Below, in pieces: positions 3,408 through 38,342 of a stretch of 38,342 nt of DNA; position 1 is the first letter of the stretch; the number at the start of each line of letters is the position of its first letter. Source of the stretch: a virus; IMG/VR virus record IMGVR_UViG_3300013120_000020, positions 1 through 38,342 of that record; one strand, written 5' to 3'. The translations under genes and the position numbers were made by a program. Under the pieces are notes generated by a model. It did no database searches and had not been told where the DNA came from. It saw nothing but the letters and a program-made list of their open reading frames with translations.

Positions 3408-4013
3408 TTAATCCCTCCGGAAAACGAATGTCAATATATCCTCTCGCCCTAATTTTGTCTCAAAATCCTCTATCCACAACATTCTGAAACCGTTTACTGC
3501 CATATATTCCATCAGACCAACCATTGTGAAATAATGATAATGTTCATCAGGGCGAAAATGTTTGCTTTGGAGAATGTGACTTAGATTGCGAAATACCGGC
3601 ATTGATATAATAACTATCTGCTTGGCAATCCTTTCAAGGGCTCCGGCAGTATCCTTTATGTGCTCAAAACTATCGAAAAATGTGATCGCTGAGAACTTAT
3701 TCAGATCATCATTCCAAAAATCACAATACCGGTCAATCATTTTTAATAATTTTATGGCTTTGGGGTTTACATCGTATCCCCATGCCTTATCAACGCCCCA
3801 TGCTTCAATCAAATTACCTGCCCCAATACCAATATCAAGTATATTGCCGGATGATGGAATATAATCTAAAAGTAGTCTTATCCGATGCTCTGTGAGTACC
3901 TTCCCCATATCTGTATATCCATATTGACGATATTTCTCAAAGTAAGCATCGTCATACACAAAATCTTCTACCGGGTAATAGCCATATCCTTTTTCTTTAT
4001 TCCACTTCAGCAT
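3408..4013 (-). CDS. Class I SAM-dependent methyltransferase
   Basis: A 201-residue Rossmann methyltransferase. Motif I is NILDIGIGAGNL (58-68), an acidic ribose-binding position follows in WGYDVNPKAI (79-87), and the FFDSFEHI strand (112-119) matches the motif IV region of UbiE/COQ5-like small-molecule methyltransferases. It is the last gene of a three-gene glycan block with a second methyltransferase and a GT9-like transferase, overlapping the former by 17 bases. By context it probably methylates a sugar or glycan, but the substrate is unknown. Bases 3706-3727 are repeated exactly at the 3' end of the YqaJ gene. Confidence 0.8.
   Translation of the reverse strand: MLKWNKEKGYGYYPVEDFVYDDAYFEKYRQYGYTDMGKVLTEHRIRLLLDYIPSSGNILDIGIGAGNLIEAWGVDKAWGYDVNPKAIKLLKMIDRYCDFWNDDLNKFSAITFFDSFEHIKDTAGALERIAKQIVIISMPVFRNLSHILQSKHFRPDEHYHYFTMVGLMEYMAVNGFRMLWIEDFETKLGREDILTFVFRRD
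3706..3727. repeat. 22-bp exact repeat, copy inside methyltransferase gene
   Basis: Identical to 11827-11848 in the same orientation, starting TCATCATTCC and ending TCACAAT. Here it encodes part of the YCDFWNDD segment. In the other copy it is read in a different frame as the C-terminus of the YqaJ protein, so shared protein ancestry does not explain it. Confidence 0.9.
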
Positions 4014-4524
4014 ATTCTTCTATTATTGCCTTTCCTTTTCGCCATACTGTTAGAAAGTTATGCCATTCATCAGCTTCATCTTCGCCATGAACAAGACAAT
4101 ACCTATGATGAAGTTCCTGATAAATCACATCAAAATCAAAGTCATGTCGGTGTTCGGGCTCATTTATTGCAAGGTATTTCTCCCAAGATTTGTGCGGAAG
4201 GTAAAGAACCAAATATCCTTGAGGCTTCAACACTCTCGTCCATTCAGAAATAGCATCTCGCCAATCAACTAAGTGCTCAAGGCAATGGCTACTGAATACA
4301 AAATCCTGGGTAGCCGGCCCTATCCCATATAAATCTATCGCATCTCTTACATAATGAACAGTACCTACTTGTTGCATGAATTTGATACATTCTGTCTGGA
4401 TATCTACTCCGCTTGCGGAAGGAAAAGGCTGATACCCACATCCAATATCTATGCCAAATCCCCGGCAATACTTTTCAATTTCCTGAGTTCTCCAAATCCA
4501 TCCTGGTAAGCTTTTTGGTATCAT
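3997..4524 (-). CDS. Class I SAM-dependent methyltransferase
   Basis: A 175-residue methyltransferase with motif I as GFGIDIGCGYQPFP (22-35), an acidic residue in GVDIQTE, and the FVFSSHCLEHLVDW segment typical of Methyltransf_11-type enzymes. LKPQGYLVLYLPH is the late strand common to the fold. ATG 4524 follows GGAGGAAAT and is preferred over the in-frame ATG 4539, which lacks a ribosome site; it overlaps the glycosyltransferase end by 4 bases. The tight coupling suggests that both methyltransferases and the glycosyltransferase work on one glycan. The substrate cannot be read from the sequence. Confidence 0.82.
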   Translation of the reverse strand: MIPKSLPGWIWRTQEIEKYCRGFGIDIGCGYQPFPSASGVDIQTECIKFMQQVGTVHYVRDAIDLYGIGPATQDFVFSSHCLEHLVDWRDAISEWTRVLKPQGYLVLYLPHKSWEKYLAINEPEHRHDFDFDVIYQELHHRYCLVHGEDEADEWHNFLTVWRKGKAIIEEYAEVE

Positions 4525-5393
4525 ATTTCCTCCAACCATTCAAAAGTGTGTAATATCTCTGTCTCCGATATCTCTTTATTACAAGCTCTGTGCTGATTCT
4601 GTATACAATTACAGAATGGATCGGGAGCAACGAACTTGAATTTATCTAAGTCCATAATGCTTTTATCTAGCAATATGCTCGGTTTGATGCTTCCTCCAAA
4701 AATACAAAAGCACTTCGCCTTCATTGCGATACTAGCGAGCATGATGAATCCAGGAGAACATAAAACCATATCTGATAGTGCTATGAGCCCGAATACTGTT
4801 GTCCAATGAAGATTTCCATGATTGAATTCTAAATCTACTTTCTCGGGGATACCATCAAACCATTCCTCAGTATTATCTGCCACACTAATAAATGTGTAAT
4901 CTTTTCGGTGTTTTTTTATTATGAGATTGATATATTCCATACGAGGGTTACGGCTGAAGTTGTGCCATTCATGGCGGCATGAAGGGAATTTGACGAGGCA
5001 GATCTTTTTGCCATTGGCGATCATCTTAGCCCGGTAGATCCATTCAGGGTTAATGGGGATATAAAAAGAATTAGGCTCAAAAGCAGAATCAAGCCTGAAA
5101 GACTCAATTATCGTTTTTCCGTCATATATTTTTTGATCATGGTAGCACATCCTAATGACTTCGCACTTCGGAGGTAACTCTGCCCATAAAGATTCACTCT
5201 GCAATTTAATGTTCTTTTTCTGAGTTTTTAGTTCTGTATCTGGTTTCAAGAATTTTATTCCATAATCAGCCCAATAAAGTTCAGGAAAAGGCGTACAAAC
5301 ATAGACCTCATCGTGATACTTCTTGGCCTCCATTACAAAAGGCCTCATGTAAAGAGAATCACCAAGTCCGTAGTATCTGTCAAATGCTATCAT
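4521..5393 (-). CDS. GT9-like glycosyltransferase
   Basis: A 290-residue protein resembling the heptosyltransferase (GT9) superfamily. It has an N-terminal glycine loop, GLGDSLYMRPFV (9-20), a central Rossmann half with KICLVKFPSCRHEW, and a late segment (ALSDMVLCSPGFIMLASIAMKAKCFCIFGG) matching the nucleotide-sugar side. It ends with a cysteine-bearing DPFCNCIQNQHRACNKEI, as in many GT9 enzymes. It probably transfers a sugar to a surface glycan or a virion glycan. The ribosome site is weak (AAAGAAAA). Bases 4845-4866, encoding EWFDGIP, are repeated exactly at the end of recT. Confidence 0.7.
   Translation of the reverse strand: MIAFDRYYGLGDSLYMRPFVMEAKKYHDEVYVCTPFPELYWADYGIKFLKPDTELKTQKKNIKLQSESLWAELPPKCEVIRMCYHDQKIYDGKTIIESFRLDSAFEPNSFYIPINPEWIYRAKMIANGKKICLVKFPSCRHEWHNFSRNPRMEYINLIIKKHRKDYTFISVADNTEEWFDGIPEKVDLEFNHGNLHWTTVFGLIALSDMVLCSPGFIMLASIAMKAKCFCIFGGSIKPSILLDKSIMDLDKFKFVAPDPFCNCIQNQHRACNKEISETEILHTFEWLEEI
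4845..4866. repeat. 22-bp exact repeat, copy inside glycosyltransferase gene
   Basis: Identical to 9702-9723 in the same orientation, starting GGGGATACC and ending ACCATTCC. Here it is coding (EWFDGIP). In the other copy it spans the recT stop codon and forms one arm and the loop of a hairpin. Confidence 0.9.
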
Positions 5394-6802: not shown

Positions 6803-6806
6803 TCAT
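6717..6806 (-). CDS. Possible 29-aa protein coupled to the methyltransferase
   Basis: ATG 6806 overlaps the methyltransferase stop (ATGA) and follows AGAGGATATT at ideal spacing. The peptide starts MKILTCYSARYYGARGGRKK and is strongly basic. Only the ribosome site and the overlap support it. It could equally be a non-functional frame in a decaying region. Confidence 0.3.
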   Translation of the reverse strand: MKILTCYSARYYGARGGRKKGQKNKVVSN

Positions 6807-8710
6807 AATATCCTCTGCCAATTCTTCTTCATATTTCTGTTGTTTTGTATATCATTTATACGCCTTTGTGCTATTTTGAAATATTCAGATTCTTTTTCTA
6901 TACCAATAAAATCTCTATCAGTATTTACGCAAGCTATTCCAGTAGTTCCAGCCCCCATAAATGGGTCTAATACAACCCCGCCAGTTGGAGTTTTAGTTAG
7001 TGTACATAAATATTCCATGAGTTTAAGTGGTTTTACTGTTGGGTGGTTGTTTTTGTTTACCATTGGTGTTTTTTCAGGGTCGCTATCTGGTGGTCTGTGC
7101 ATTTTATATTTCTTATCCTCCAACCCCTCACACCCCTCATTCCTTTCCTTCTTACTTGCCTTTGCTTGGTATAGAAATCTTTTTGGTTCTGACTTTTCTG
7201 TTTTTCGGATGTAATTTTTGATGGCAGGAAGCACATAACCAAACAATTTCAAAAGGTTTTGAGTAGTCTGGGTGGTGTCTATGCTGTCCATCTGCTCCAC
7301 ATAGTTGGCAAGGTTCTGGATTAGGATACATTTTCTGTAATTTCCAATAAAGTCCTGAATAACTTGTGATGCCTCTTGGGATTGCACATCCTTTTGGCTC
7401 TCCGATATTGCTACAAGACCTTGAACAATATCTGTTCCGCATGAGTCGCACAGGTTTCCCACATACTTTACAAGCTGGACGGATTTGTCGTTTAGCTTCT
7501 GAGTAGCATTTTTTTGAGCAATACTTTCTGTTGTTTGACTTATACTCCCAGAACTCTCTTTTGCACTTCGGGCAGATTTGCTTTTCCATGTTTCCTCCTT
7601 GTTGGTGTCTTTATGCAAAGTATTATAACAAAGAGAGCATTCATTGTCAAGTGATATAGATTTAAAGAAACGGGCAGCTGAGCCTGAATCACCACCATAA
7701 TTCCCTTTAATAGTTCCACCACCACCCATAAAACTATTACCAGTCCCATCGCCCCTCTTGTGTCCACTATTTAGATTCCCACTTTTCGTATCAGGAAACA
7801 ACCCCACAACCTCATCACTACCATCATGTATTATATTGGCTGGGAAACGGCCTTGGGGGTGTGGTTTATCTCCAAAACTTCCGTTTTTAAATATGTCACC
7901 CTTTTCTTTGCTATTACTCGCCCTCCACTTATATCTGCCTCTAACCCTCCCACCATCTATATTTAATCCACTTACTCCCCATTTAAGAGCATTATTAGCA
8001 TAAGTTCCATCATTAGGTTTCTGTGCTACTATAATAGGCTCATAAGCTGGTTTTAGTGCTGTTCCCCAGCCTTCCCACTTTTTGGCTCTGTCTTCCGTTA
8101 TCTCTGTCTTGTTTTGGTGTTTATTTGAATAGTCGTTAGGTCGGTATCCCTGTCCGTGTTGAAGTTTAGCATACCCTAAAGCACCATTACTGCTATCCCC
8201 AGTACCATTCCAAGAAGCATTGCCTGTTTTTAAGTACTTATCCAAGTTCTTGCCTATATTATAAGATTTAGGAAATCCACTACCGTATAACCACATAATA
8301 CAATCCTTTAATATCCAACCAGCCTCTTCACAAGCACAAGCTACTCTGTGATACAATCTAGGACTTCCAAAACATAATAAATTTCCACCTGGTTTAGTTA
8401 CTCTTAAAAGTTCTTTAAATATAGGTCTAAACCATTCTTGAAATCCTATGTGTCCTTGTAAAGATTGGTCATACAAACCTGCAGCCGCAGCATTACTATT
8501 AATTCCTTTTAAAGGAGACTTCCTAACATCTTTCTTAATCTTTGTTTTTTTGTATCCTTTTGCTACTTTCTCTATTCTATTACTTTTAAAAGTATCCCAT
8601 TCCTTCCCCATAAATCCCAATCCATAAGGTGGGTCAGTAATAACAGTATCTACTGAATTTTCAGCAATAGTTGCCATAGCATTTAAACAGTCATCATTTA
8701 TCAGATTCAT
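6803..8710 (-). CDS. DNA methyltransferase (N6/N4 type) with a 150-residue insert
   Basis: A 635-residue enzyme that should methylate DNA bases, probably adenine-N6, protecting phage DNA or altering its regulation. The catalytic motif DPPY is at 26-29 and the SAM-binding DPFMGAGTTG near 582, the beta-class order (PF01555 family). Between AARFFK and RFLYQAKASKKERN, which normally lie close together, about 150 residues are inserted (roughly 354-505). This block has CxxC pairs (CSLC, CDSC) and coincides with an HNH gene and its promoter in another frame. ATG 8710 follows GAGGTTAAGA; an in-frame ATG at 8722 is possible. Whether the insert is tolerated, spliced or harmful is unknown. Confidence 0.82.
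   Translation of the reverse strand: MNLINDDCLNAMATIAENSVDTVITDPPYGLGFMGKEWDTFKSNRIEKVAKGYKKTKIKKDVRKSPLKGINSNAAAAGLYDQSLQGHIGFQEWFRPIFKELLRVTKPGGNLLCFGSPRLYHRVACACEEAGWILKDCIMWLYGSGFPKSYNIGKNLDKYLKTGNASWNGTGDSSNGALGYAKLQHGQGYRPNDYSNKHQNKTEITEDRAKKWEGWGTALKPAYEPIIVAQKPNDGTYANNALKWGVSGLNIDGGRVRGRYKWRASNSKEKGDIFKNGSFGDKPHPQGRFPANIIHDGSDEVVGLFPDTKSGNLNSGHKRGDGTGNSFMGGGGTIKGNYGGDSGSAARFFKSISLDNECSLCYNTLHKDTNKEETWKSKSARSAKESSGSISQTTESIAQKNATQKLNDKSVQLVKYVGNLCDSCGTDIVQGLVAISESQKDVQSQEASQVIQDFIGNYRKCILIQNLANYVEQMDSIDTTQTTQNLLKLFGYVLPAIKNYIRKTEKSEPKRFLYQAKASKKERNEGCEGLEDKKYKMHRPPDSDPEKTPMVNKNNHPTVKPLKLMEYLCTLTKTPTGGVVLDPFMGAGTTGIACVNTDRDFIGIEKESEYFKIAQRRINDIQNNRNMKKNWQRIL
7152..7589 (-). CDS. HNH homing-type endonuclease, out of frame inside the methyltransferase gene
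   Basis: A 145-residue protein. Two four-cysteine fingers (CPKC...CSKKC at 6-28; CKVC...CSRSC at 40-59) precede an HNH domain with CQLC (94-97), RHHPDY (104-109), VWLCASCH (116-123) and a final QKLH. This is the layout of small phage HNH nucleases that home into phage genes. The frame differs from that of the enclosing methyltransferase, yet both stay open for 146 codons. It has its own consensus promoter (7622-7650) and AAGGAGG four bases before ATG 7589. Its last codons run into original methyltransferase sequence. It is a mobile gene inserted in a conserved gene. Confidence 0.85.
   Translation of the reverse strand: MEKQICPKCKREFWEYKSNNRKYCSKKCYSEAKRQIRPACKVCGKPVRLMRNRYCSRSCSNIGEPKGCAIPRGITSYSGLYWKLQKMYPNPEPCQLCGADGQHRHHPDYSKPFEIVWLCASCHQKLHPKNRKVRTKKISIPSKGK
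7622..7650 (-). promoter_or_regulatory. Consensus sigma70 promoter for the nested HNH gene
   Basis: On the minus strand: TTGACA (7650-7645), a 17-base spacer and TATAAT (7627-7622), with the expected start near 7614 and the HNH ribosome site at 7600-7594. In the methyltransferase frame the same bases encode DNECSLCYN, so the first CxxC pair of the insert is in fact promoter sequence. It matches the early and late promoters in both hexamers and spacing. Confidence 0.85.
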
Positions 8711-8948
8711 TCTTAACCTCATATTTTGTTTTGTAACTCACTTGAACACCATTAGTTATCCGTTTAACTTTAATCTCTGAATCGCTTGTAATTGTTTTAA
8801 GTGCTGTATGGCATGAGCTACAATACTCATGAACTTCGCTTGTGTATACGTCATCTTCTTTCATCCATCTACGGCATGGTATTTCTACACTGTCACAATT
8901 CAATGACATCTCTTTACAAAAAGGACACTCTTTTGGTTTTCTTATCAT
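8694..8948 (-). CDS. Zinc-ribbon protein, 84 aa
   Basis: The N-terminus has CPFC (8-11) and further cysteines (CDS, PCRRW). A YCSSCHTAL motif follows about 30 residues later, consistent with a bound zinc ion. The rest is beta-rich. This CPFC...CxxC layout occurs in restriction-alleviation (Lar-like) and other small phage proteins, but I cannot assign it firmly. The start follows AGGAGAGAAC, and the stop overlaps the methyltransferase start region by 17 bases, suggesting the two are translated together. Confidence 0.65.
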   Translation of the reverse strand: MIRKPKECPFCKEMSLNCDSVEIPCRRWMKEDDVYTSEVHEYCSSCHTALKTITSDSEIKVKRITNGVQVSYKTKYEVKNESDK

Positions 8949-15139: not shown

Positions 15140-16006
15140 TTACCCAATAGCTTCTACTATATCCGGGATGCTGAATAAGTCCGTAATATCGTACGGACAC
15201 TCATACAGCTTTTTCCCCGTCCAATCTACTTCAGCAAAACTCTTTGTAATCCCATGCGTAAACTTCTTATCTTGGCAACGGAATATATCCCTGTGGCATT
15301 CGTAGCCATATATTCCTGGTTTTGTTCCAACCCAACAAACAACGCTTGGCAAATCGAAAGCGGCTGCACAATGCTGAGCAAAGCTATCAATAAGCAACCT
15401 TTTATCGCTTATTTTAATCACCGCCATTAGATCACGGATATTTCCGGTTACTGTTTCAACGCCCTGTAATCCAGGTTGGTTTTGTTTCCTAATATGCAGA
15501 ATATGATATTTCTGCTGTAAGATACTAACCAACGCTTGTGCTTGGTTATGGGGCAAGTCTCTTGACCAGGTATACATATCCCCTATACCGCCGTTTGCTT
15601 GCAATACCAAAATGGGTTTTCCTCTTGAGAATTTAGCTTTGGCAAATTCAATCTCAGCTTGGGTAAGATAAATCTGTGGGTTTATTACTACATCATCTAC
15701 ACCGCAAAGATCGCACCAAGTAGTTCTTAGGTGTTGTTCTTTTTTAATGAATGTTCCTTCTTTATATGGTTCCTGGTTAAAAATAATAGTATCATTATGG
15801 ATATAATCCTCTCTGAAATATAAAGGATTATCGATCGGGTATACCCTATAAACGTTGGGATTATTTACAAATATATCCATGTAAGCAGTCAGAACAACTA
15901 TACGATGCTCTGGATATTTTTTCTTTAGTGATGAGATAACTGCTGTTGCAACAATGTTTTTACCTATTCCACCAGCTATCGAAAAAACTAGAAATGGTTT
16001 ATTCAT
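15140..16006 (-). CDS. GT9-like glycosyltransferase
   Basis: A 288-residue protein of the heptosyltransferase-like fold. It has the N-terminal loop SIAGGIGKNIVATAVI (9-24) followed by KKKYPEHRIVVLTAY. Late in the chain come LLIDSFAQHCAAAFDLPSVV and WVGTKPGIYGYECH, the GT9 donor-site signature. It would add a sugar to a surface or virion glycan. ATG 16006 (8 bases of overlap with the sulfotransferase, AAAGAG upstream) is preferred over 16024. Coupling to the sulfotransferase suggests that a sugar is added and then sulfated, or the reverse, but the acceptor is unknown. Confidence 0.8.
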   Translation of the reverse strand: MNKPFLVFSIAGGIGKNIVATAVISSLKKKYPEHRIVVLTAYMDIFVNNPNVYRVYPIDNPLYFREDYIHNDTIIFNQEPYKEGTFIKKEQHLRTTWCDLCGVDDVVINPQIYLTQAEIEFAKAKFSRGKPILVLQANGGIGDMYTWSRDLPHNQAQALVSILQQKYHILHIRKQNQPGLQGVETVTGNIRDLMAVIKISDKRLLIDSFAQHCAAAFDLPSVVCWVGTKPGIYGYECHRDIFRCQDKKFTHGITKSFAEVDWTGKKLYECPYDITDLFSIPDIVEAIG

Positions 16007-16712
16007 AACCAAACTCTTTCCCATCCTTTGCGTATCGTTTCTCTGCCATTTGTCTTAACATGGGAGTGTAGTATCCATTCAAATCATACTTTTTTGACTT
16101 ATTAAGTCTGTCTAATTCAATTTTAATCCCAATTTCTTTGGAGATATTTTTAAGATCATCTGTCAATGTTTCCATCCGGGCCAGATAATCTATCTTTATG
16201 CCCTCAAGAAACGTATGCTGTGGTCGCCAGTGTACATCGCAGTATTGATCTGGCGAATTAGCCACGAATCTAACAAACTGCCCGAAGGAGATCGTGTCGT
16301 TCTCTGATCCGTTAATGTGCCGGTTAATCTGCGGTACGGGTGGATCTTTCTTAGTCAAGAACTTCCAAACGTAAGCTGAGAGTAATCTTTCTATCGGATT
16401 CCTAACTACTGCAAAAACAAAATAGTCATCAAAGAAAAGCTTGTTGTACTTAGCCCCTTGCCCATTGTGAAAATCAGCACTCTTTTCGTGTGTGTACTCT
16501 TCATCTCCTTTTAGCTTTGCATACCAGTTTTTAATGCTAGTACAAGCGTTTTTGGAGATCGGCACATACACAAATTTATGCTCATCATCAACGAGCAACG
16601 GCCGCCAGAAGTTAGACTCTATGACACTAACCCCAGGAAATGAATTGGCAATAGTCTGTTTCACAACAGGCCCAACCATACCGCCATAAACAGGAAGATA
16701 TGCTTTCTGCAT
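15999..16712 (-). CDS. Carbohydrate sulfotransferase-like protein (Sulfotransfer_2 type)
   Basis: A 237-residue protein with both PAPS-binding motifs of the HNK-1/carbohydrate sulfotransferase group: VPISKNACTSIKNWY (50-64) for the 5'-phosphosulfate and VVRNPIERLLSAYVW (102-116) for the 3'-phosphate. This family transfers sulfate from PAPS to sugar hydroxyls. It starts at the fibre stop codon and overlaps the glycosyltransferase, so it belongs with the fibre and glycan genes. Sulfating the host surface, the virion fibre glycan or an exported polymer are all possible. The fold call is strong; the substrate is open. Confidence 0.85.
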   Translation of the reverse strand: MQKAYLPVYGGMVGPVVKQTIANSFPGVSVIESNFWRPLLVDDEHKFVYVPISKNACTSIKNWYAKLKGDEEYTHEKSADFHNGQGAKYNKLFFDDYFVFAVVRNPIERLLSAYVWKFLTKKDPPVPQINRHINGSENDTISFGQFVRFVANSPDQYCDVHWRPQHTFLEGIKIDYLARMETLTDDLKNISKEIGIKIELDRLNKSKKYDLNGYYTPMLRQMAEKRYAKDGKEFGYE

Positions 16713-18721
16713 TATTGCATTTTTGTTTCTATTGCTTTTACTCTCTTCTGTAAATCTTTTGTCGCATTAACCAAAGATGCTATAATAGGTCTATTATTGA
16801 GCGATAAGTAACCGCTTGTCGTAACTCCTACTGCTTCAGGAATAAACTTCTGTACGTTCTGTGCTGAGAAACCAACCTTATTGCCTTGATCTTTCCCGTT
16901 CTTCCAGTTAAAGCGAATAGGTTTAATTTCTTTAATCGCACAACCTCCCCCACAGTAGTCACCTGAGACATTCTTGAGTCTCTCATCAGACACATCATCT
17001 ACTAGGCAGCCACTTGAAAAACAGGCGTTGTTTGTACCTCGTCCGTTAAAGTAGTAATAACAACCACTAAGGACATGAAGCCAAGAATTCTGATAGCCGA
17101 CTATGGTGCTACAGGCTGACGGATTAGAAAGGCATGATCCAAATGCAGCCGCATAATCTGCCTGTGTGGTATTGAAGGATCCGAACGCAGATCCGAACAT
17201 CCCACATGCGGTATTTGTATTACCGATTGCGTTAGCGTCACATTGACACGCTTGGTTAAGAAATCCAATCGCAGATGAGTTTTTACACAAAGCGGTGTTA
17301 GCACCACCTATCGCTGAGCTACAACACCCCCAACCTTGACTTATGTATCCTACTGCCGTAGCGTTTTCCGAACTCGCATTAGAACAATACCCTACTGCTG
17401 TCGCACTTGAATCACTAGCCGAGGCAAATGCACCAACTACTGAAGAACAATTACCCGTTGCATTTGTTGCATCCCCTACCGCAACACTTGAAGGGTTTTG
17501 TGCTAATGCACCTTTGCCAACAGCGACAGAATCAGAGCCACACGCTTGAGCACCGCCTCCTACAGCCGTTGCGGTAATATCAAGTGCTTTCGCTACATTC
17601 CCTACCGCCGTTGCACAGTTATTATTGGCACAAGCTTGTAATCCTACTGCCAATGCTTGATCGCCACCAGATGCTACGATTGCATCTACGCCAATAGCTG
17701 TGCTGTAATTACCACAAGCCCTCGCATTAGGCCCATATGCCGCAGAACAACATCCTGGAGCTATTGCCCGAGAACCACCAGCTATCGAATCATGATTTGA
17801 AGCATTTGCTCGATACCCAATCGCTGTTGCCCTATACCCTGCCGCTGTCGTACAAACACCATGAGCCGAGGCGTAACATTGCGATGCTTGAGACATATAT
17901 CCAATCGCAAGAGTGGCCACATGAGAAGCAACATTGGCATACCCAAACGCTGAACTGTATGTACAAGTTGCACAATTTTGCATACCTGCTGCGGTGTTGT
18001 AATCCTGTGTCGCTTGATTGAGAAAGCCAATTGATGTAGAACAACCACCAGACGCAGTATTGCCATGCCCTACTGCCGTAGCTTGTGTCCCACTTGCAGT
18101 ATTACAATTCCCCAATGCTGTTGTTTCAGCCCCAGATGCAACTTGCGTTGCTAATGATCTACAAGATTGAATGTCAAGAGCGTTTGAACCCCTTGCGTTA
18201 CCAGTCTTATTCAAAGTCATTCCATCGATAGTGCCAAAAGCACCAGCGTTGTTAATCTGTAAATCTCCATCTACACCACCGGGGACTTTGGCGTTTAGTT
18301 GTGCCTGGATACCAGAAGTCACTCCGCTAACATATCCCATCTCGGTGGGCGTAACCCCTCCGATGTTGTTTCCGTTCATATCGAGATTACCACCTAATTG
18401 TGGAGTAGTATCTTCAACTACATTTTGCAGATAACCAGCCAAATCGCTAGTAAGAGCAAACGTACCAGTACCACCTGGGATTGTGTGAGTATTGACTGTG
18501 CCTAAACTGGTGATATTAAATGTTTGGGCGTCAAGATTTCCTCCCAACTGTGGCGTGGTATCCTCAACGATATTCTGTAAAAACGACAGATTACTTTGTA
18601 GAAATGCTTGTATTTGTGTAACCGTTAATTTCTTAGACGTACCAGCTTCATTAATGGCTATCTCATTCGCTCCGGCGGCGGCTGCTGCTGCCGTCAATTC
18701 ACTAATCTTTTTGTCTGCCAT
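16712..18721 (-). CDS. Cysteine-rich YadA-like tail fibre with S74 chaperone
   Basis: A 669-residue fibre that should bind the host. The N-terminal 150 residues contain two VEDTTPQLGGNLD repeats. A long run of YadA-head (Hep_Hag) repeats follows, of the form xAIGYxAxAS (about 180-550), which trimerise into a left-handed beta roll. From Ser 578 (SDERLKN) the C-terminus is an S74 intramolecular chaperone with the Ser-Lys dyad that cleaves itself off. The odd feature is cysteine: 28 by my count, all after residue 180 and repeated at equivalent repeat positions. ATG 18721 follows GGAGGTGTATT. It is transcribed just ahead of the sulfotransferase and glycosyltransferase. Confidence 0.88.
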   Translation of the reverse strand: MADKKISELTAAAAAAGANEIAINEAGTSKKLTVTQIQAFLQSNLSFLQNIVEDTTPQLGGNLDAQTFNITSLGTVNTHTIPGGTGTFALTSDLAGYLQNVVEDTTPQLGGNLDMNGNNIGGVTPTEMGYVSGVTSGIQAQLNAKVPGGVDGDLQINNAGAFGTIDGMTLNKTGNARGSNALDIQSCRSLATQVASGAETTALGNCNTASGTQATAVGHGNTASGGCSTSIGFLNQATQDYNTAAGMQNCATCTYSSAFGYANVASHVATLAIGYMSQASQCYASAHGVCTTAAGYRATAIGYRANASNHDSIAGGSRAIAPGCCSAAYGPNARACGNYSTAIGVDAIVASGGDQALAVGLQACANNNCATAVGNVAKALDITATAVGGGAQACGSDSVAVGKGALAQNPSSVAVGDATNATGNCSSVVGAFASASDSSATAVGYCSNASSENATAVGYISQGWGCCSSAIGGANTALCKNSSAIGFLNQACQCDANAIGNTNTACGMFGSAFGSFNTTQADYAAAFGSCLSNPSACSTIVGYQNSWLHVLSGCYYYFNGRGTNNACFSSGCLVDDVSDERLKNVSGDYCGGGCAIKEIKPIRFNWKNGKDQGNKVGFSAQNVQKFIPEAVGVTTSGYLSLNNRPIIASLVNATKDLQKRVKAIETKMQ

Positions 18722-29662: not shown

Positions 29663-30265
29663 CTATTGAAACTCCTTCATCTGCGGGCCACCCCACTTAC
29701 TATTGACCCAATATTCATCATTCATCTCCGGGGGCGTACCAGTTTGTGAGTTCTCTGATTTCGCTTTCGGCAAAGACACTGATTCATAATATTCAAGCAG
29801 TGCTTGTGATTTAGGCCCTGAGTTGAGAATGGAGAAACTCATTTCATGTGCGAGTTTATCAGAAAAAGCTTCTGAAAACTTAGGAATATATGTACCAGGA
29901 CTCTCATTTTTCCAGACATAGATAATTCCAAGACTTGCTGTATCAGAGAAAATTATATCACCTTCCCGATACCAAGTAGCTCCATCATCAGAGACACCAA
30001 ATATCCTTATTGTATCGTTAGGTACTTGATAGGCGTATGAAAGGGTTGTTCCTGGCGGACTCCATGCTATCTCATCTGATACTTGAGCTAGATTTACCCT
30101 CTTAGTAGCAAACGTCCAAAGACATTCACTGAGGATACTCTCAAGTGAAATGGTATAAACTCTATTCGCTATCCTAGCCTCTTCGCTTGAGTCATCCGTA
30201 GAGGTAATTGGACGTGCCCCAAGTTTGGTTAGTGCTCTATTGATAATTTCGACTTTTGTGGCCAT
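29663..30265 (-). CDS. Tail tubular protein A (adaptor, T7 gp11-like)
   Basis: 200 residues beginning MATKVEIINRALTKLGARPI, the hallmark of gp11-like adaptors. It continues with ANRVYTISLESILSECLWTFATKRVNL and YAYQVPNDTIRIFGV. This protein forms the ring between the portal and the nozzle. ATG 30265 follows AAGGAGGGATTGCA and lies inside the 3' end of the sulfotransferase gene, so the latter is spliced tightly into the structural operon. Confidence 0.9.
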   Translation of the reverse strand: MATKVEIINRALTKLGARPITSTDDSSEEARIANRVYTISLESILSECLWTFATKRVNLAQVSDEIAWSPPGTTLSYAYQVPNDTIRIFGVSDDGATWYREGDIIFSDTASLGIIYVWKNESPGTYIPKFSEAFSDKLAHEMSFSILNSGPKSQALLEYYESVSLPKAKSENSQTGTPPEMNDEYWVNSKWGGPQMKEFQ

Positions 30266-30966
30266 TGCAATCCCTCCTTGACGCTATTTACAAATTCATA
30301 ATCTTCGGGTTTGAATATATTCTTATGATCTCCAACAATGCCTTTCCTCGGCATAATTGAGCGATGTTTTTTAATACTTGGCAATTGATATCCTAAAGGC
30401 TTATGATTTAAGAAATAAGACAATCTATCAATTGAGTTCTCTGTCGACCCTATAATCTCCTCATAAGTGATACGGAAGGTAGAATCGCACCCAAACCAGT
30501 CTTTTCGGTGCAGAAGCACCATTTCAACCATGTTCTTTGCGTCATAAACACGCCATTTTCGCAAGAAAGGGTCATCATTAGGGTCAAACCTTAGATAATC
30601 TGAGAAACTGCTGTTTAAGGGCAAATAATTAGCACACTGCCGAAAGTAATGATATCCACTTACGAGAGTATCATAGAGGCATCTTTCGACATATATAATC
30701 TTCCAATCTAACTGAAGATGATTCTTGAGTTGTGCGAGGGTACTCCAAAGATGGTGGGTTTTGTAGATGCGGCCTTCCATCCTTGCCTCACCTATTGTGA
30801 TGGGCGGCTCTTTCTCGTTAAGATTAAGATAGGGCACACATCCTCCACCATGATCCGGCTTGAAAAAGTTCAAGTAGATCAGATTGATAGTCAAGTTCGT
30901 CCCACTTCTAGGATGAGACGCAACAAGAATGTTTTGCATAGACCCATTCTCTTGTCGGTTCGCCAT
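30229..30966 (-). CDS. Sulfotransferase (Sulfotransfer_1-like)
   Basis: 245 residues. The 5'-phosphosulfate loop is ASHPRSGTNLTINLI (16-30), followed by YKTHHL (68-73) and a 3'-phosphate region VERCLYDTLVSGYHYF (93-108). These are in the order and spacing of PAPS-dependent cytosolic-type sulfotransferases, and the family differs from that of the second enzyme at 15999. It overlaps the Rossmann-like gene by 59 bases and tail tubular A by 37, and so is part of the late structural operon. ATG 30966 follows AGGAAATCTATC; ATG 30939 is an alternative. The substrate could be a virion glycan or a host glycan. Confidence 0.8.
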   Translation of the reverse strand: MANRQENGSMQNILVASHPRSGTNLTINLIYLNFFKPDHGGGCVPYLNLNEKEPPITIGEARMEGRIYKTHHLWSTLAQLKNHLQLDWKIIYVERCLYDTLVSGYHYFRQCANYLPLNSSFSDYLRFDPNDDPFLRKWRVYDAKNMVEMVLLHRKDWFGCDSTFRITYEEIIGSTENSIDRLSYFLNHKPLGYQLPSIKKHRSIMPRKGIVGDHKNIFKPEDYEFVNSVKEGLQWPQKSKLSIEH

Positions 30967-31573
30967 GATAGATTTCCTGCATTGTACCTGACATAAACAT
31001 TACATTGTCCCGTGCGAAAGCATTGTCCCGATAAAATTCTTTCCATACATTTCTCGTTGCCCCATCAAACCAGCTTGAACTATTATCTTTATGGACAGGG
31101 GGGTCAAAGTAATGCCCTGATGTATCAAGCGGCACGCCACATAAGATTATCTTATTATAGCCTATCGCAATAGCTATTTTCACTGCGAGCATAGCTGATG
31201 AACCTCCATTGGTTGATACTTTCTCCCATACAAAATCAAGCCCAGGAGAAGGTTTACTTGAATGTAATAAACAAGCCTCAAGCATTGATTTTTCTTTACG
31301 CATGATGGATAAAGCTTTGGGGAGTCTTTGGTGGCAACTTACAATGTGCTGGATTGTCTCTGCCTTGAATTGACCGGCGATATCGTTAATACACATAATT
31401 TCATACTCACGCTCAGTATTAAATAAAGACTTAGCTTTCCTGTAATCTTCCCATACTGTACGGCCTCCACCGAGGATCAGTAAACCGCCAGGGTAGACTT
31501 CTTCATACGCACCTACTATCCTCGGTTTTTCTCCATAGCCTGATATCTCTCGATATTTCCAAGGCATTATCAT
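30908..31573 (-). CDS. Rossmann-like protein resembling MptE/DUF115
   Basis: 221 residues. A glycine-rich first strand, GGLLILGGGRTVWEDY (29-44), is followed by CINDIAGQF, HIVSCHQRLP, GGSSAMLAVKIAIAIGYNKIILCGVPLD and a histidine/acid-rich end. This pattern is shared with the DUF115/MptE-like group, some of which act in glycan transfer such as flagellin or motility-protein glycosylation. It is followed at once by the sulfotransferase, so a joint role in modifying a glycan is plausible but not shown. Confidence 0.65.
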   Translation of the reverse strand: MIMPWKYREISGYGEKPRIVGAYEEVYPGGLLILGGGRTVWEDYRKAKSLFNTEREYEIMCINDIAGQFKAETIQHIVSCHQRLPKALSIMRKEKSMLEACLLHSSKPSPGLDFVWEKVSTNGGSSAMLAVKIAIAIGYNKIILCGVPLDTSGHYFDPPVHKDNSSSWFDGATRNVWKEFYRDNAFARDNVMFMSGTMQEIYHGEPTREWVYAKHSCCVSS

Positions 31574-31620: not shown

Positions 31621-32052
31621 TCATTTTGTCCAACGAACAATACTCTTAATTGTCCCAGTAGCAGCTCCTCCTGCTGTAGTAATCTGAATTCGAGTGTCAT
31701 CATTGGTAGTGTCAGTACCGATCACATACTGAAGCCCGTCCACCCGGATAGCGTCAGTTTCACCGGCACTTGAAGCAGACGTAGCCAAGATATACCTATC
31801 GGCATCCCCGGCATCTCCGACTGCTAAAGTTACTCCTGATCCTAGAGCATCAAAAGCAATGTGAACTCCCGTAACTTTTGCGTTGGAAGGGAGAACAGCA
31901 ATATCAATCGTAGAGTCTGCTGCGAGAGCTGCGGCCTCATACGAATCAGCGATAATCTGTTCATTTGCCTTCCAGAAGCCCTGGCTAATGGCATTGTCAC
32001 CACTCGGGCCTGCATCATACTTCGTAACATTTGCACCTTTTACTGCTGCCAT
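31621..32052 (-). CDS. Capsid-associated protein (possible decoration protein)
   Basis: 143 residues, alanine/threonine-rich and beta-rich, starting MAAVKGANVTKYDAGPSGDN. It continues through ADSTIDIAVLPSNAKVTGVH, GSGVTLAVGDAGDADRYILA and a RIQITTAGGAATGTIKSIVRW end. Proteins of this kind are found right after the major capsid gene in many short-tailed phages. Decoration or head-tail completion is inferred. The start follows GAAGGAGGTTAAATC. Confidence 0.7.
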   Translation of the reverse strand: MAAVKGANVTKYDAGPSGDNAISQGFWKANEQIIADSYEAAALAADSTIDIAVLPSNAKVTGVHIAFDALGSGVTLAVGDAGDADRYILATSASSAGETDAIRVDGLQYVIGTDTTNDDTRIQITTAGGAATGTIKSIVRWTK

Positions 32053-34357: not shown

Positions 34358-35982
34358 ACAGACTGTGCCTCCTTACTCTTTAGGTTTGCACTTGCCGCTT
34401 TGTCGGCAATCTCAGCCCCAGCCCCAAGCATCTCAATCCTTTGCTGTGCTGCCTGAGCTTCAGCTCTATTCTCTCTAATCTCACCAACTTCTTGATCGTC
34501 CCTGAGTATCTGCACCGGAGCGGCGGTAATGCCCCACACAACATCAGTAGCCTTATCAGTATTGACTTTATCCAGCACTTGAGGGTCGAATTGAGCCATT
34601 TGCCCTACCATGACAAGAGCTTGTTGTAGTGATTGAAGCTCACTTGACTTTTGTGCTTTTGCCAAAGCTGATACATACTCAATCTCATACTGGGGATTCT
34701 CGATAAGTGCATCCGGCACAGGAGGCAATTTATCAGCTCTAGCCAATATGCCAATAGTTCGAGTAATTATCTTATCGAGTACATCTGATATGAACCTGCC
34801 TACTGCGGGCCCGAGAAGAGTCATCTTCTCAGTTATCCTCTCCATCACTTCAGGTACAGTCATTTGTTTGGTGATCCCTTGAAAGGCCATAAATACATCA
34901 TTAAACATTTGACTTCGTATCCTTTGCACTCGGTATTCCATTTCGGTCAACCCTATCCCGACATTGCCATAATTACCAAAAGGAAACAGTTCTTTTGCGG
35001 TCATCTTGCTACGATCATAATAGTTAATACCCCGAGGGTTAGCGTTGAGAGGCAATAGAAAAGCATTATCAGGCATAGCAACTGGAGGATCAGTGAGTTT
35101 CATCGCAGCTCGAAGTTGTGTCTTTGCTATCGCATTAAGCACTCTCACATCCGGTAAGCACTTCATGGCCGGTGAGAACCCCCATACAATACCTGATCTC
35201 TTGTAAAATCGATGAGCAAAGGCCGGCATTTCATTATAGCCCCCCTCTTGAAGAGTCTTCTGTTGGGCTATATCTATCCATACTGCCTTATATTTCATAT
35301 TCTGGTTATCCTGCTTACGCATATCATAACCATGCCGAGGGCCGATATAGAGTAAGTATTTATATTTTGTCTCAGGACTCAATCCTCTTTGGAGGCCTCG
35401 TCTCATCTCATTAGTAAGTGCTTCTTCACCAAATCTACTGACTACTTGATCTGCAGTATATTCAAGTTCAATATAGAACTCGATTACCCGACCACGTGCA
35501 TCCTCATTAATACATACTTGCTTAATAGGAAGATTGTAGAAACGTATATCATCCTGGAGATCTTCTTCTTCAAGGAGAACTGATGTGCCATAGACTCCCG
35601 ATGATTTATAGAACTCAGGCTTCTGGTTATAGAAATTAGATCGATTGAGAGCATGATATACTTCAGCCTCTAAATCTTTAAGAAACACCATCACATCTTT
35701 AGACTCCATCTGGGTAGGATCAGGCGTACGGAGAGCAAACCATTTAGAGGTAGGCGGAGTGAGATAGTTAAGAAGTCCTGAGCCAAGCACATCAGCAGCC
35801 TCTAAAGACGCTGAATCCCATAGTTGAGTAATGGTGAGCTCCTGTCCTGGGGCATATTGGGTATTGACATCATCGCTCTCGATATAGAAATAATCATGAA
35901 GGCGTTGCCAATAGGTATCCCAATTCGACCGTGCACTCTTTAACCTAGTGAAATTCTTTATGATCTTTTTTGGCTCTGTCAT
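34354..35982 (-). CDS. Portal (T7-type head-tail connector) protein
   Basis: 542 residues. The N-terminus (LKSARSNWDTYWQRLHDYF, then TQLWDSASLEAADVLGSGLL and PPTSKWFALR) is the classic opening of T7 gp8-like portals. KEKNPRGINYYDRSK-like and EMEYRVQRIRSQMFNDVF segments lie further on, with a glutamine/alanine-rich C-terminal helix. It forms the dodecameric ring through which DNA enters and leaves. The start lies 38 bases inside the acetyltransferase gene. Confidence 0.92.
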   Translation of the reverse strand: MTEPKKIIKNFTRLKSARSNWDTYWQRLHDYFYIESDDVNTQYAPGQELTITQLWDSASLEAADVLGSGLLNYLTPPTSKWFALRTPDPTQMESKDVMVFLKDLEAEVYHALNRSNFYNQKPEFYKSSGVYGTSVLLEEEDLQDDIRFYNLPIKQVCINEDARGRVIEFYIELEYTADQVVSRFGEEALTNEMRRGLQRGLSPETKYKYLLYIGPRHGYDMRKQDNQNMKYKAVWIDIAQQKTLQEGGYNEMPAFAHRFYKRSGIVWGFSPAMKCLPDVRVLNAIAKTQLRAAMKLTDPPVAMPDNAFLLPLNANPRGINYYDRSKMTAKELFPFGNYGNVGIGLTEMEYRVQRIRSQMFNDVFMAFQGITKQMTVPEVMERITEKMTLLGPAVGRFISDVLDKIITRTIGILARADKLPPVPDALIENPQYEIEYVSALAKAQKSSELQSLQQALVMVGQMAQFDPQVLDKVNTDKATDVVWGITAAPVQILRDDQEVGEIRENRAEAQAAQQRIEMLGAGAEIADKAASANLKSKEAQSV

Positions 35983-36433
35983 GATTTAAGTCCTTGATTA
36001 AATGGGTTTCAAATTGAGAATACCCTGTTCGTTCATAAAATCTCAATAGTCTATCTGGCATCGAATTGTGCATAAAAGCCATTATTATTTTGTCAATCCC
36101 ATGATCTATGCACCACTTTTCAAGACGTCTTAGGAGTTTAATGCCATGTCTGCGATGTTCCTCTGAGACATACCAGATGACTTCCTGGTAGACTTTCGTA
36201 GGGCTCAAAAGCTCCTCCACTATGAATCCGCCCATTATACCTCTTACCTCTCCATCTACTATAAGGATGAAACTCGTATTCCTGAGTTGCCGTATCAATC
36301 CTTGCAATCTCTTCAGCCCTTCTTCTTTGTCAAATGTGAGTGAATACTGATTAAGAGAGTTCTTGTAAAATTCATGAATAAGCTCTACGATCTTATCGTG
36401 ATCTTTGTCTTGATACATTCGTATCTCCACCAT
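35945..36433 (-). CDS. GNAT-family acetyltransferase
   Basis: 162 residues. The GNAT fold is suggested by IRMYQDKDHDKIVELIHEFY, FILIVDGEVRGIMGGFIVEE, VIWYVSEEHRRHGIKLLRRLEKW (acetyl-CoA loop RRHGIK near 94-99) and a late FYERTGYSQFE. Such genes often occur near terminase and portal genes of podoviruses. The acceptor is unknown; it could be a host protein or a small molecule. It shares TAATG with the upstream gene. Confidence 0.8.
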   Translation of the reverse strand: MVEIRMYQDKDHDKIVELIHEFYKNSLNQYSLTFDKEEGLKRLQGLIRQLRNTSFILIVDGEVRGIMGGFIVEELLSPTKVYQEVIWYVSEEHRRHGIKLLRRLEKWCIDHGIDKIIMAFMHNSMPDRLLRFYERTGYSQFETHLIKDLNHDRAKKDHKEFH

Positions 36434-36933: not shown

Positions 36934-38244
36934 TTAGATTATATTTACCTCTTTCGCATATCGAGGCTGCCGATGGTAGATATTGCGTTGTACCCTATGA
37001 ATATTATCACACTCACTTATCGCCATCATTAAAGCATCTGCCTCATCAGGAGATTTCACATTATCACGCCGCATTTTCTCTTTACTTACGATAGATTTTT
37101 GGCCTGTGCTTGAATACTCAAACTTTATCGTCTCAAGCTGTTCAATAATACTATCTTCATTGATACGCAGCCATCCTCGGGTAAGTATGTCTTTAACCTT
37201 ATAATATGACATTGCTTTAAGATTCTTATATCGTTTCGTATCGATATTCTCGATAGTACCACCTCTAAATTCCTTAATCTCTCGCTTCATCTCTCTTAAT
37301 CTATCTACCACACCAGCTCCCATGCCATCACCATCAATTACGACAATACCTGGCTTTTCCATGAGAATGATATCGGTCACACGGCCTGTCGTCTCCATGA
37401 GGTCTTTCCCTTTCCATTTAATCTTTAATGTCTGTTCCCATTGATGAGGGCCTCGTTGAGTTATAATCGTTGCTACAGAATAATCATCTCCATAGCGTGC
37501 TATATCCTGCCCCATAATTTTATTACCCCATAAGGTAGGATCGTAATGGAACTCGGCTTTCTTTGCCCCATTCAACTCTGCGGTATTGAATAAGTAATTG
37601 TCGGCATCCGCAAGGGGCTCACCTAGCCAAATATGATTATAGTCATCAGGGTGACATTGGGCAGCCTCAGCCTTTAATGCCTGAGTGCAGAAAGGATTAT
37701 CAATAAAGTTGATCTTGATATGCTTACAATCATCACGATCAATGAACTGTTTATATACTGCATCATTACGCAAGTATCTATTCATTGTGAAGAATACCCT
37801 TGCTCTGTCTTTTCTGATAGTAGGAAGGATTACATCAAGCGTGGGCTTAGTTATCGCCTGGGCCTCATCTATCCATAAGATATCAACACCCTCCAACCCT
37901 TTAATATTAATCATCCCTTGCTCTCGAAAGCCTTTAAAGCGAATCTCTGATTTAGTCTCTCTGTGTATGATTTTAGAAGAGTATACTTCAAAATTGAGTG
38001 AATACTCTTGGATGATATCCCTGAATACCGTATAGACTGATTCTTCTATGGTATTCTGAATCTCACGACCACAAAATATCCTTATTGCCTTTTGCTCGGC
38101 AATATAGAGAAGTAAACGTGCGACTCCTTGCGTCTTACCACCTCCTCGACCACCCTCAAGAAGAAAGTATCGCCAATCATTAAATTCAGATATTATGGGA
38201 AGTAGCTTGTCGGGGATCTGAAGCATTTTGGGGACAGTGATCAT
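36934..38244 (-). CDS. terL: Terminase large subunit
   Basis: 436 residues. Walker A is GGRGGGKTQG (31-40), Walker B is VDILWIDEAQA (120-130), and the C-terminal nuclease shows GQDIARYGDDYS (about 246-257) and VVIDGDGMGAGVVDRL. It cuts the concatemer and pumps DNA into the head through the portal. The ATG at 38244 equals position 21 of the left end, where it overlaps the terS stop. It is a Terminase_3-like (PBSX-type) protein. The packaging mode cannot be read from the window. Confidence 0.93.
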   Translation of the reverse strand: MITVPKMLQIPDKLLPIISEFNDWRYFLLEGGRGGGKTQGVARLLLYIAEQKAIRIFCGREIQNTIEESVYTVFRDIIQEYSLNFEVYSSKIIHRETKSEIRFKGFREQGMINIKGLEGVDILWIDEAQAITKPTLDVILPTIRKDRARVFFTMNRYLRNDAVYKQFIDRDDCKHIKINFIDNPFCTQALKAEAAQCHPDDYNHIWLGEPLADADNYLFNTAELNGAKKAEFHYDPTLWGNKIMGQDIARYGDDYSVATIITQRGPHQWEQTLKIKWKGKDLMETTGRVTDIILMEKPGIVVIDGDGMGAGVVDRLREMKREIKEFRGGTIENIDTKRYKNLKAMSYYKVKDILTRGWLRINEDSIIEQLETIKFEYSSTGQKSIVSKEKMRRDNVKSPDEADALMMAISECDNIHRVQRNIYHRQPRYAKEVNII

Positions 38245-38342
38245 TCTTTCTTATCCTCTCCTACATCAAAGATAATCTTCTTGTCACCTATTGTTACTGT
38301 CGGCATCTTCACCACACTCAATGTTTGTTCGACTTCTCGCTT
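38224..38342. repeat. Direct terminal repeat, right copy (119 bp)
   Basis: Exact copy of bases 1-119. It contains the first 21 bases of terL and the last part of terS. It is the evidence that the contig closes into a 38223-bp circle. Confidence 0.97.

Follow-up and report, generated by a model that had tools for sequence, protein, structure and literature searches.

When a sulfotransferase gene is found wedged between genes for a virus particle, a simple question has to be asked: what would such an enzyme sulfate, and could it be the particle itself? The window, by which we mean the whole 38,342-nucleotide stretch analysed here, is the closed record of a small uncultured podovirus with a unit of ~38.2 kb, as can be judged from its first 120 bases, which come back at its end (positions 1-120 recur at 38223-38342 as a 120-bp direct terminal repeat). 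The virion genes of this record lie on the minus strand, and at the site in question the order is head decoration protein, MptE-like protein, sulfotransferase (hereafter ST1) and tail tubular protein A:

31621-32052, minus strand: head decoration/virion structural protein, bordering the insertion on its upstream side (PHROG 486, E 3e-15)
30908-31573, minus strand: MptE-like Rossmannoid protein, a weak assignment (Pfam PF01973, E 0.0019, below cut-off), overlapping ST1 by 59 nt
30229-30966, minus strand: ST1, predicted PAPS-dependent sulfotransferase (Sulfotransfer_1, SULT fold), 245 aa (Pfam, alignment, model)
29663-30265, minus strand: tail tubular protein A, overlapping ST1 by 37 nt (PHROG 394 tail protein, E 2.9e-37)

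The sulfotransferase gene is present where an earlier note on this DNA had placed it: the minus strand is open there for 245 codons, while the plus strand is full of stops. The start may instead be M10, at 30939, where most viral relatives begin. The Pfam family Sulfotransfer_1 (PF00685) matches ST1 with 51.5 bits (cut-off 22, E 1.2e-13), and a search of the whole record with this family independently recovers ST1 as the sole matching place. Relatives were collected by scanning viral contigs for the C-terminal motif KGxxGDxKNxF and by further retrieval, which yielded an alignment of 15 sequences. The motifs that can be recognized in ST1 are as follows:

30895-30915, minus strand: predicted 5'-phosphosulfate-binding loop HPRSGTN, residues 18-24 (15-sequence alignment, profile)
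30751-30765, minus strand: YKTHH, residues 68-72, in line with the SULT region that holds the catalytic His (alignment, profile)
30643-30690, minus strand: predicted 3'-phosphate-binding motif, with R95 and S103 invariant in the 15 sequences (alignment)
30319-30354, minus strand: C-terminal cofactor motif RKGIVGDHKN, R207-N216, with R207, K208, G209, G212 and D213 invariant (alignment, profile)

D99 is likewise invariant in the alignment, and G22 nearly so. Both elements that the earlier note had read from the letters are thus found: the PRSGT loop lies within H18-P-R-S-G-T-N24, a [KR]SGT loop near the N-terminus, and the 3'-phosphate region is present as R95...S103 together with R207-K-G-I-V-G-D-H-K-N216. 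The ST1 loop carries Arg where the eukaryotic PKSGT has Lys, as is the case in most of the viral relatives. A profile search aligns K69-T70-H71-H72 of ST1 with the PTH of 5x2b, leaving both H71 and H72 as candidates for the catalytic base.

Searched against solved structures, the profile of the 15-sequence alignment retrieves SULTs, with E down to 3.8e-38. The structure prediction that had been proposed as a check gave, from the alignment, a confident AlphaFold2 model (pLDDT 82.9, pTM 0.83) that matches SULTs throughout; a single-sequence AlphaFold2 model (pLDDT 32) was discarded. The top Foldseek matches of the model are SULTs with PAP (E 1.9e-10), and VIA-align superposes it on SULT2A1 with PAPS (4ifb) with Z 18.1 and an rmsd of 3.0 A over 213 residues. 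A kinase identity for ST1 was considered and rejected: no Pfam kinase family matches, and the PDB profile matches, like the listed Foldseek and VIA-align PDB matches of the model, are all of the SULT-superfamily sulfotransferase fold. Hence neither of the two findings that the earlier note would have counted against a sulfotransferase was encountered, the PAPS contacts being kept and the homologues being sulfotransferases rather than kinases. With the cytosolic SULTs (PF00685; SULT2A1, 4ifb; SULT7A1, 5x2b) ST1 has in common the whole-domain fold, both phosphate-binding motifs, the RKGxxGDxKN motif and the KTH catalytic region; it differs from them in its ~20% identity, its shorter length (245 aa), an Arg where PKSGT has its lysine and its location in a viral operon. 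Judging from sequence and fold, ST1 is, by class, almost certainly a SULT-type sulfotransferase that depends on PAPS, and it is predicted to be enzymatically active.

Within this class, ST1 has no close homologue (best identity 25-31%), and in a tree of the 15 sulfotransferases it sits on a long branch, the placement of which is not resolved. INPHARED phages and PLSDB plasmids were searched by tblastn with ST1, and INPHARED also with two of its viral relatives; nothing meaningful came of either search. One candidate relative, L002, proved spurious, having only FKPEDYEF in common with ST1 in an unrelated 1195-aa protein.

The overlaps that had been claimed on both sides of ST1 are real, and the ribosome site (Shine-Dalgarno, AAGGAGG) of tail tubular A sits within the ST1 frame. 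Given this arrangement and the lack of terminator-like sites between 29400 and 33300, the earlier suggestion that ST1 is expressed late, with the virion genes, is plausible. The description of the gene as embedded among tail genes holds for the downstream side, where tail tubular A overlaps ST1, but head genes lie upstream, so that the site is better called the head-tail junction. The upstream partner is named MptE-like because its PF01973 score, 18.4 bits, is under the cut-off of 34.6; it is possibly a glycosyltransferase-type partner of ST1, and PDB searches with MptE-like proteins gave chance matches alone. Elsewhere in the head operon, a GNAT acetyltransferase gene (35945-36433, Pfam E 6e-10) overlaps the portal gene, so that there is another possible modifying enzyme among the virion genes.

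How did the two genes come to lie there? Through homologues of the major capsid protein, 43 related loci were gathered, 32 of them with both flanking genes. The gap between the decoration and tail tubular A genes measures 13-92 bp in 30 of these 32 relatives, 551 bp in L017 and 3857 bp in L003. The gap of L017 is occupied by a Methyltransf_24 gene and that of L003 (7831-11616) by a 3.9-kb insert that encodes a 1029-aa protein without a Pfam match and two small frames. Since the flanking genes are less than 100 bp apart in 30 of the 32 relatives, ST1 and its MptE-like neighbour make up a clean insertion of two genes, at a site that varies and accepts cargo. In L004, which is cut by the contig end, a partial homologue of the MptE-like protein, 43% identical, begins at the same junction, and beyond this fragment no relatives of the MptE-like gene were found. 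Matches to PF00685 number zero in the 32 related records, most of which are fragments. The next junction, from tail tubular A to B, varies as well: some relatives (L015, L035, L017) have inserts of 0.9-1.4 kb there.

At least ten distinct other viral contigs carry PF00685 or its C-terminal signature, and in seven of ten the sulfotransferase lies among sugar enzymes or methyltransferases (GT2/GT10/GT9, epimerase, DegT, HldE-like, FkbM, Methyltransf_24), a descriptive count that comes without a background frequency. Specifically, the neighbours are epimerases, a cytidylyltransferase and a PfkB kinase in L053, where a PF00685 and a PF03567 gene are adjacent; a GT2 and a Sulfotransfer_4 gene in L072; DegT-type, HldE-like and GT9-like genes in L073; GT-like, FkbM-like and MptE-like proteins in L048, where the sulfotransferase adjoins the terminase gene; FkbM and GT10 in L056 and L059; and methyltransferases with a large glycosyltransferase-like protein in L077. 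In L071, L074 and L078 no sugar-enzyme cassette was detected nearby by Pfam. L056, L059, L077 and L048 are more distant from ST1 than L053 and L071-L074. The sulfotransferases of the seven contigs are of the same fold family and have the same C-terminal motif as ST1, and those examined belong to longer sugar cassettes, one of them beside a terminase gene (L048), unlike ST1, which shares its insert with a single other gene and lies where head and tail genes meet in a 38-kb podovirus. Taken together, these neighbourhoods favour a glycan as the probable acceptor, without indicating whose glycan it would be. The survey of co-occurrence with the Rossmann-like neighbour that the earlier note had proposed did not reveal the same partner gene, as the MptE-like protein of the window is not alignable by BLAST with that of L048.

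Two of these contigs deserve a separate description. In L048 (6932-11211), a cassette for glycosyltransferase-like, MptE-like, FkbM-like and sulfotransferase proteins immediately adjoins the genes for terminase and portal, and a gene of this cassette is also found in L052, L065 and L069. L071 (G034), a 140 kb viral contig, encodes one PF00685 and two PF03567 sulfotransferases; ~8 kb from them, beside a glycosyltransferase-like protein, is a P-loop kinase that weakly matches APS kinase. It was considered as a source of phage-made PAPS and set aside, since the match is weak and the protein, a P-loop kinase, is not a clear APS kinase.

The earlier note had called ST1 the first of two sulfotransferases. 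A second one, ST2, does exist in the genome, in a Pfam family different from that of ST1, next to the fibre gene:

16712-18721, minus strand: tail fibre/spike that combines YadA head repeats with a Peptidase_S74 chaperone domain at its C-terminus (domain matches)
15999-16712, minus strand: ST2, second sulfotransferase, family PF03567 (Pfam E 6e-26)
15140-16024, minus strand: glycosyltransferase family 9-like (heptosyltransferase-like) protein, overlapping ST2 (NCBIfam RfaQ, E 9e-7, below cut-off)

PF03567 (Sulfotransfer_2) matches ST2 with 92.5 bits (cut-off 22) and, because the Pfam families differ, ST1 and ST2 are, judged by their sequences, not copies of one gene. The start of ST2 overlaps the stop of the tail-fibre gene (junction TAATG), and right after ST2, overlapping it, comes the GT9-like gene, the product of which is weakly similar to LPS heptosyltransferases. 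With these three overlapping neighbours (15140-18721), the genome has another sugar-type module that is linked to a virion gene. Searches for PF03567 and for ST2 in the relatives gave zero matches anywhere and are therefore weak negatives, although the PF03567 model does match in the window itself, and a search for ST2 relatives by exact peptide patterns found none. Elsewhere in the record, two SAM methyltransferases (3408-4539) form a run of overlapping frames (3408-5393) with a 290-aa glycosyltransferase-looking protein without a Pfam match. In a DNA N4/N6 methyltransferase (6803-8722), the Pfam match is split in two stretches, which suggests an insertion of roughly 100-150 residues.

The following scenario can be envisaged, to which we assign a probability of about 0.45: ST1 would be a glycan O-sulfotransferase, brought in with a two-gene insert and acting late, and its acceptor would most likely be a phage-made virion glycan. 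ST1 and its MptE-like neighbour would have been acquired together at the variable site of the virion operon; the active, cytosolic enzyme would be made late, alongside the structural proteins, and would transfer the sulfuryl group from host PAPS to a carbohydrate hydroxyl. The dependence on the host for PAPS, already assumed in the earlier note, is in agreement with a search of the record, in which no APS kinase was found. The acceptor might be a short glycan built with the phage-encoded MptE-like and GT9-like proteins and methyltransferases, most likely carried on virion proteins, with the tail fibre as the prime candidate. We prefer the virion, and especially the fibre, as the target, since each of the two sulfotransferase genes overlaps a virion gene and the cytosol in which the enzymes would act is also where virion proteins are assembled. 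Enzyme activity, late expression and a glycan as acceptor are inferred here, the virion as target most of all, and the position in the virion operon may merely give ST1 its late expression and need not mark its target. It is a tentative, on balance doubtful, extension of this scenario that the two sulfotransferases of different families together build a sulfated glycan on the virion (on fibre or head-tail proteins), which would amount to a negatively charged coat.

The virion has to compete with the host surface, a serious rival that is still weighty even if, in our judgement, it is unlikely to be the right one: ST1 might, late in infection, sulfate a host surface glycan or a lipid- or nucleotide-linked precursor and so block the re-adsorption of sister phages to the dying cell or its debris. 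ST1 is soluble, a heptosyltransferase-like (LPS-type) protein is encoded in the same genome and sugar-nucleotide enzymes accompany the sulfotransferase in the relatives, all of which fits such a role; yet ST1, overlapping virion genes as it does, should be expressed late, at a time when a change of receptor would be of limited use, and no membrane or export component was found adjoining it. The sugar-type neighbours, in the window phage as well as in related phages, indicate a carbohydrate and thereby speak against the direct sulfation of a virion protein (e.g. on tyrosine) without a glycan. Co-expression with the virion proteins in the same compartment would suit such a reaction, but the PDB profile search did not bring up any tyrosylprotein sulfotransferase, and we regard this reading as quite improbable.

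The nearest solved structures, which are small-molecule SULTs, suggest that ST1 could be an auxiliary metabolic gene whose product, like the cytosolic SULTs, sulfates a small molecule (a lipid, a phenol, a sterol-like or a signalling compound). The usual labelling of phage sulfotransferases as auxiliary metabolic genes is consistent with this (PMC8290583, PMC12285232), but the PDB coverage is skewed to animal SULTs and the viral relatives lie mostly in carbohydrate gene cassettes, so that such a role appears improbable, if less so than direct protein sulfation. Finally, the lack of close relatives and the absence from the 32 related records could be expected of a decaying passenger with an inactive product; this is very hard to reconcile with a full-length frame, intact cofactor motifs throughout and a confident SULT model.

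Sulfotransferases as such are not new to phages. OM43 phages encode one of family PF13469, and the role of these enzymes in phage genomes is stated to be unclear (PMC10580990); sulfotransferases are listed as auxiliary genes of glacier viruses (PMC8290583) and among phage auxiliary genes (PMC12285232). Together with the ten or more viral contigs described above, these listings do not fully support the earlier statement that such enzymes are rare in phages. Among BFVD models, ST1 matches the sulfotransferases of Ralstonia phage RSL1 and Synechococcus phage S-SCSM1. The 'sulfotransferase' mentions in PMC10269572 and PMC10434257 turned out to concern PAPS reductases and were set aside. The reported enzymes (PMC10580990, PMC8290583, BFVD) are phage-encoded like ST1 but of other or more distant families, and the accessible parts of PMC10580990 and PMC8290583 describe no position overlapping virion genes, unlike that of ST1. 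It is this position in the virion operon, rather than the presence of a phage sulfotransferase, that is unusual and informative.

The closest parallel for the preferred scenario, a glycan on the virion, is virion glycosylation in the mycobacteriophage Che8 and its relatives, known here via a citing paper (PMC11256854), where the decoration of virion proteins by phage-encoded sugar enzymes has been proposed or demonstrated; the available part of that paper leaves sulfation unmentioned. No report of a sulfated virion was found in the literature searched, the coverage of which was incomplete. The place of ST1 among virion genes makes the virus particle a testable target, and a small closed genome with two sulfotransferases tied to tail and fibre genes leaves a short, testable list of acceptors. 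If virions did prove to carry sulfate, phage particles could be counted among the biological surfaces known to be sulfated, and their adsorption, charge and decay would be affected.
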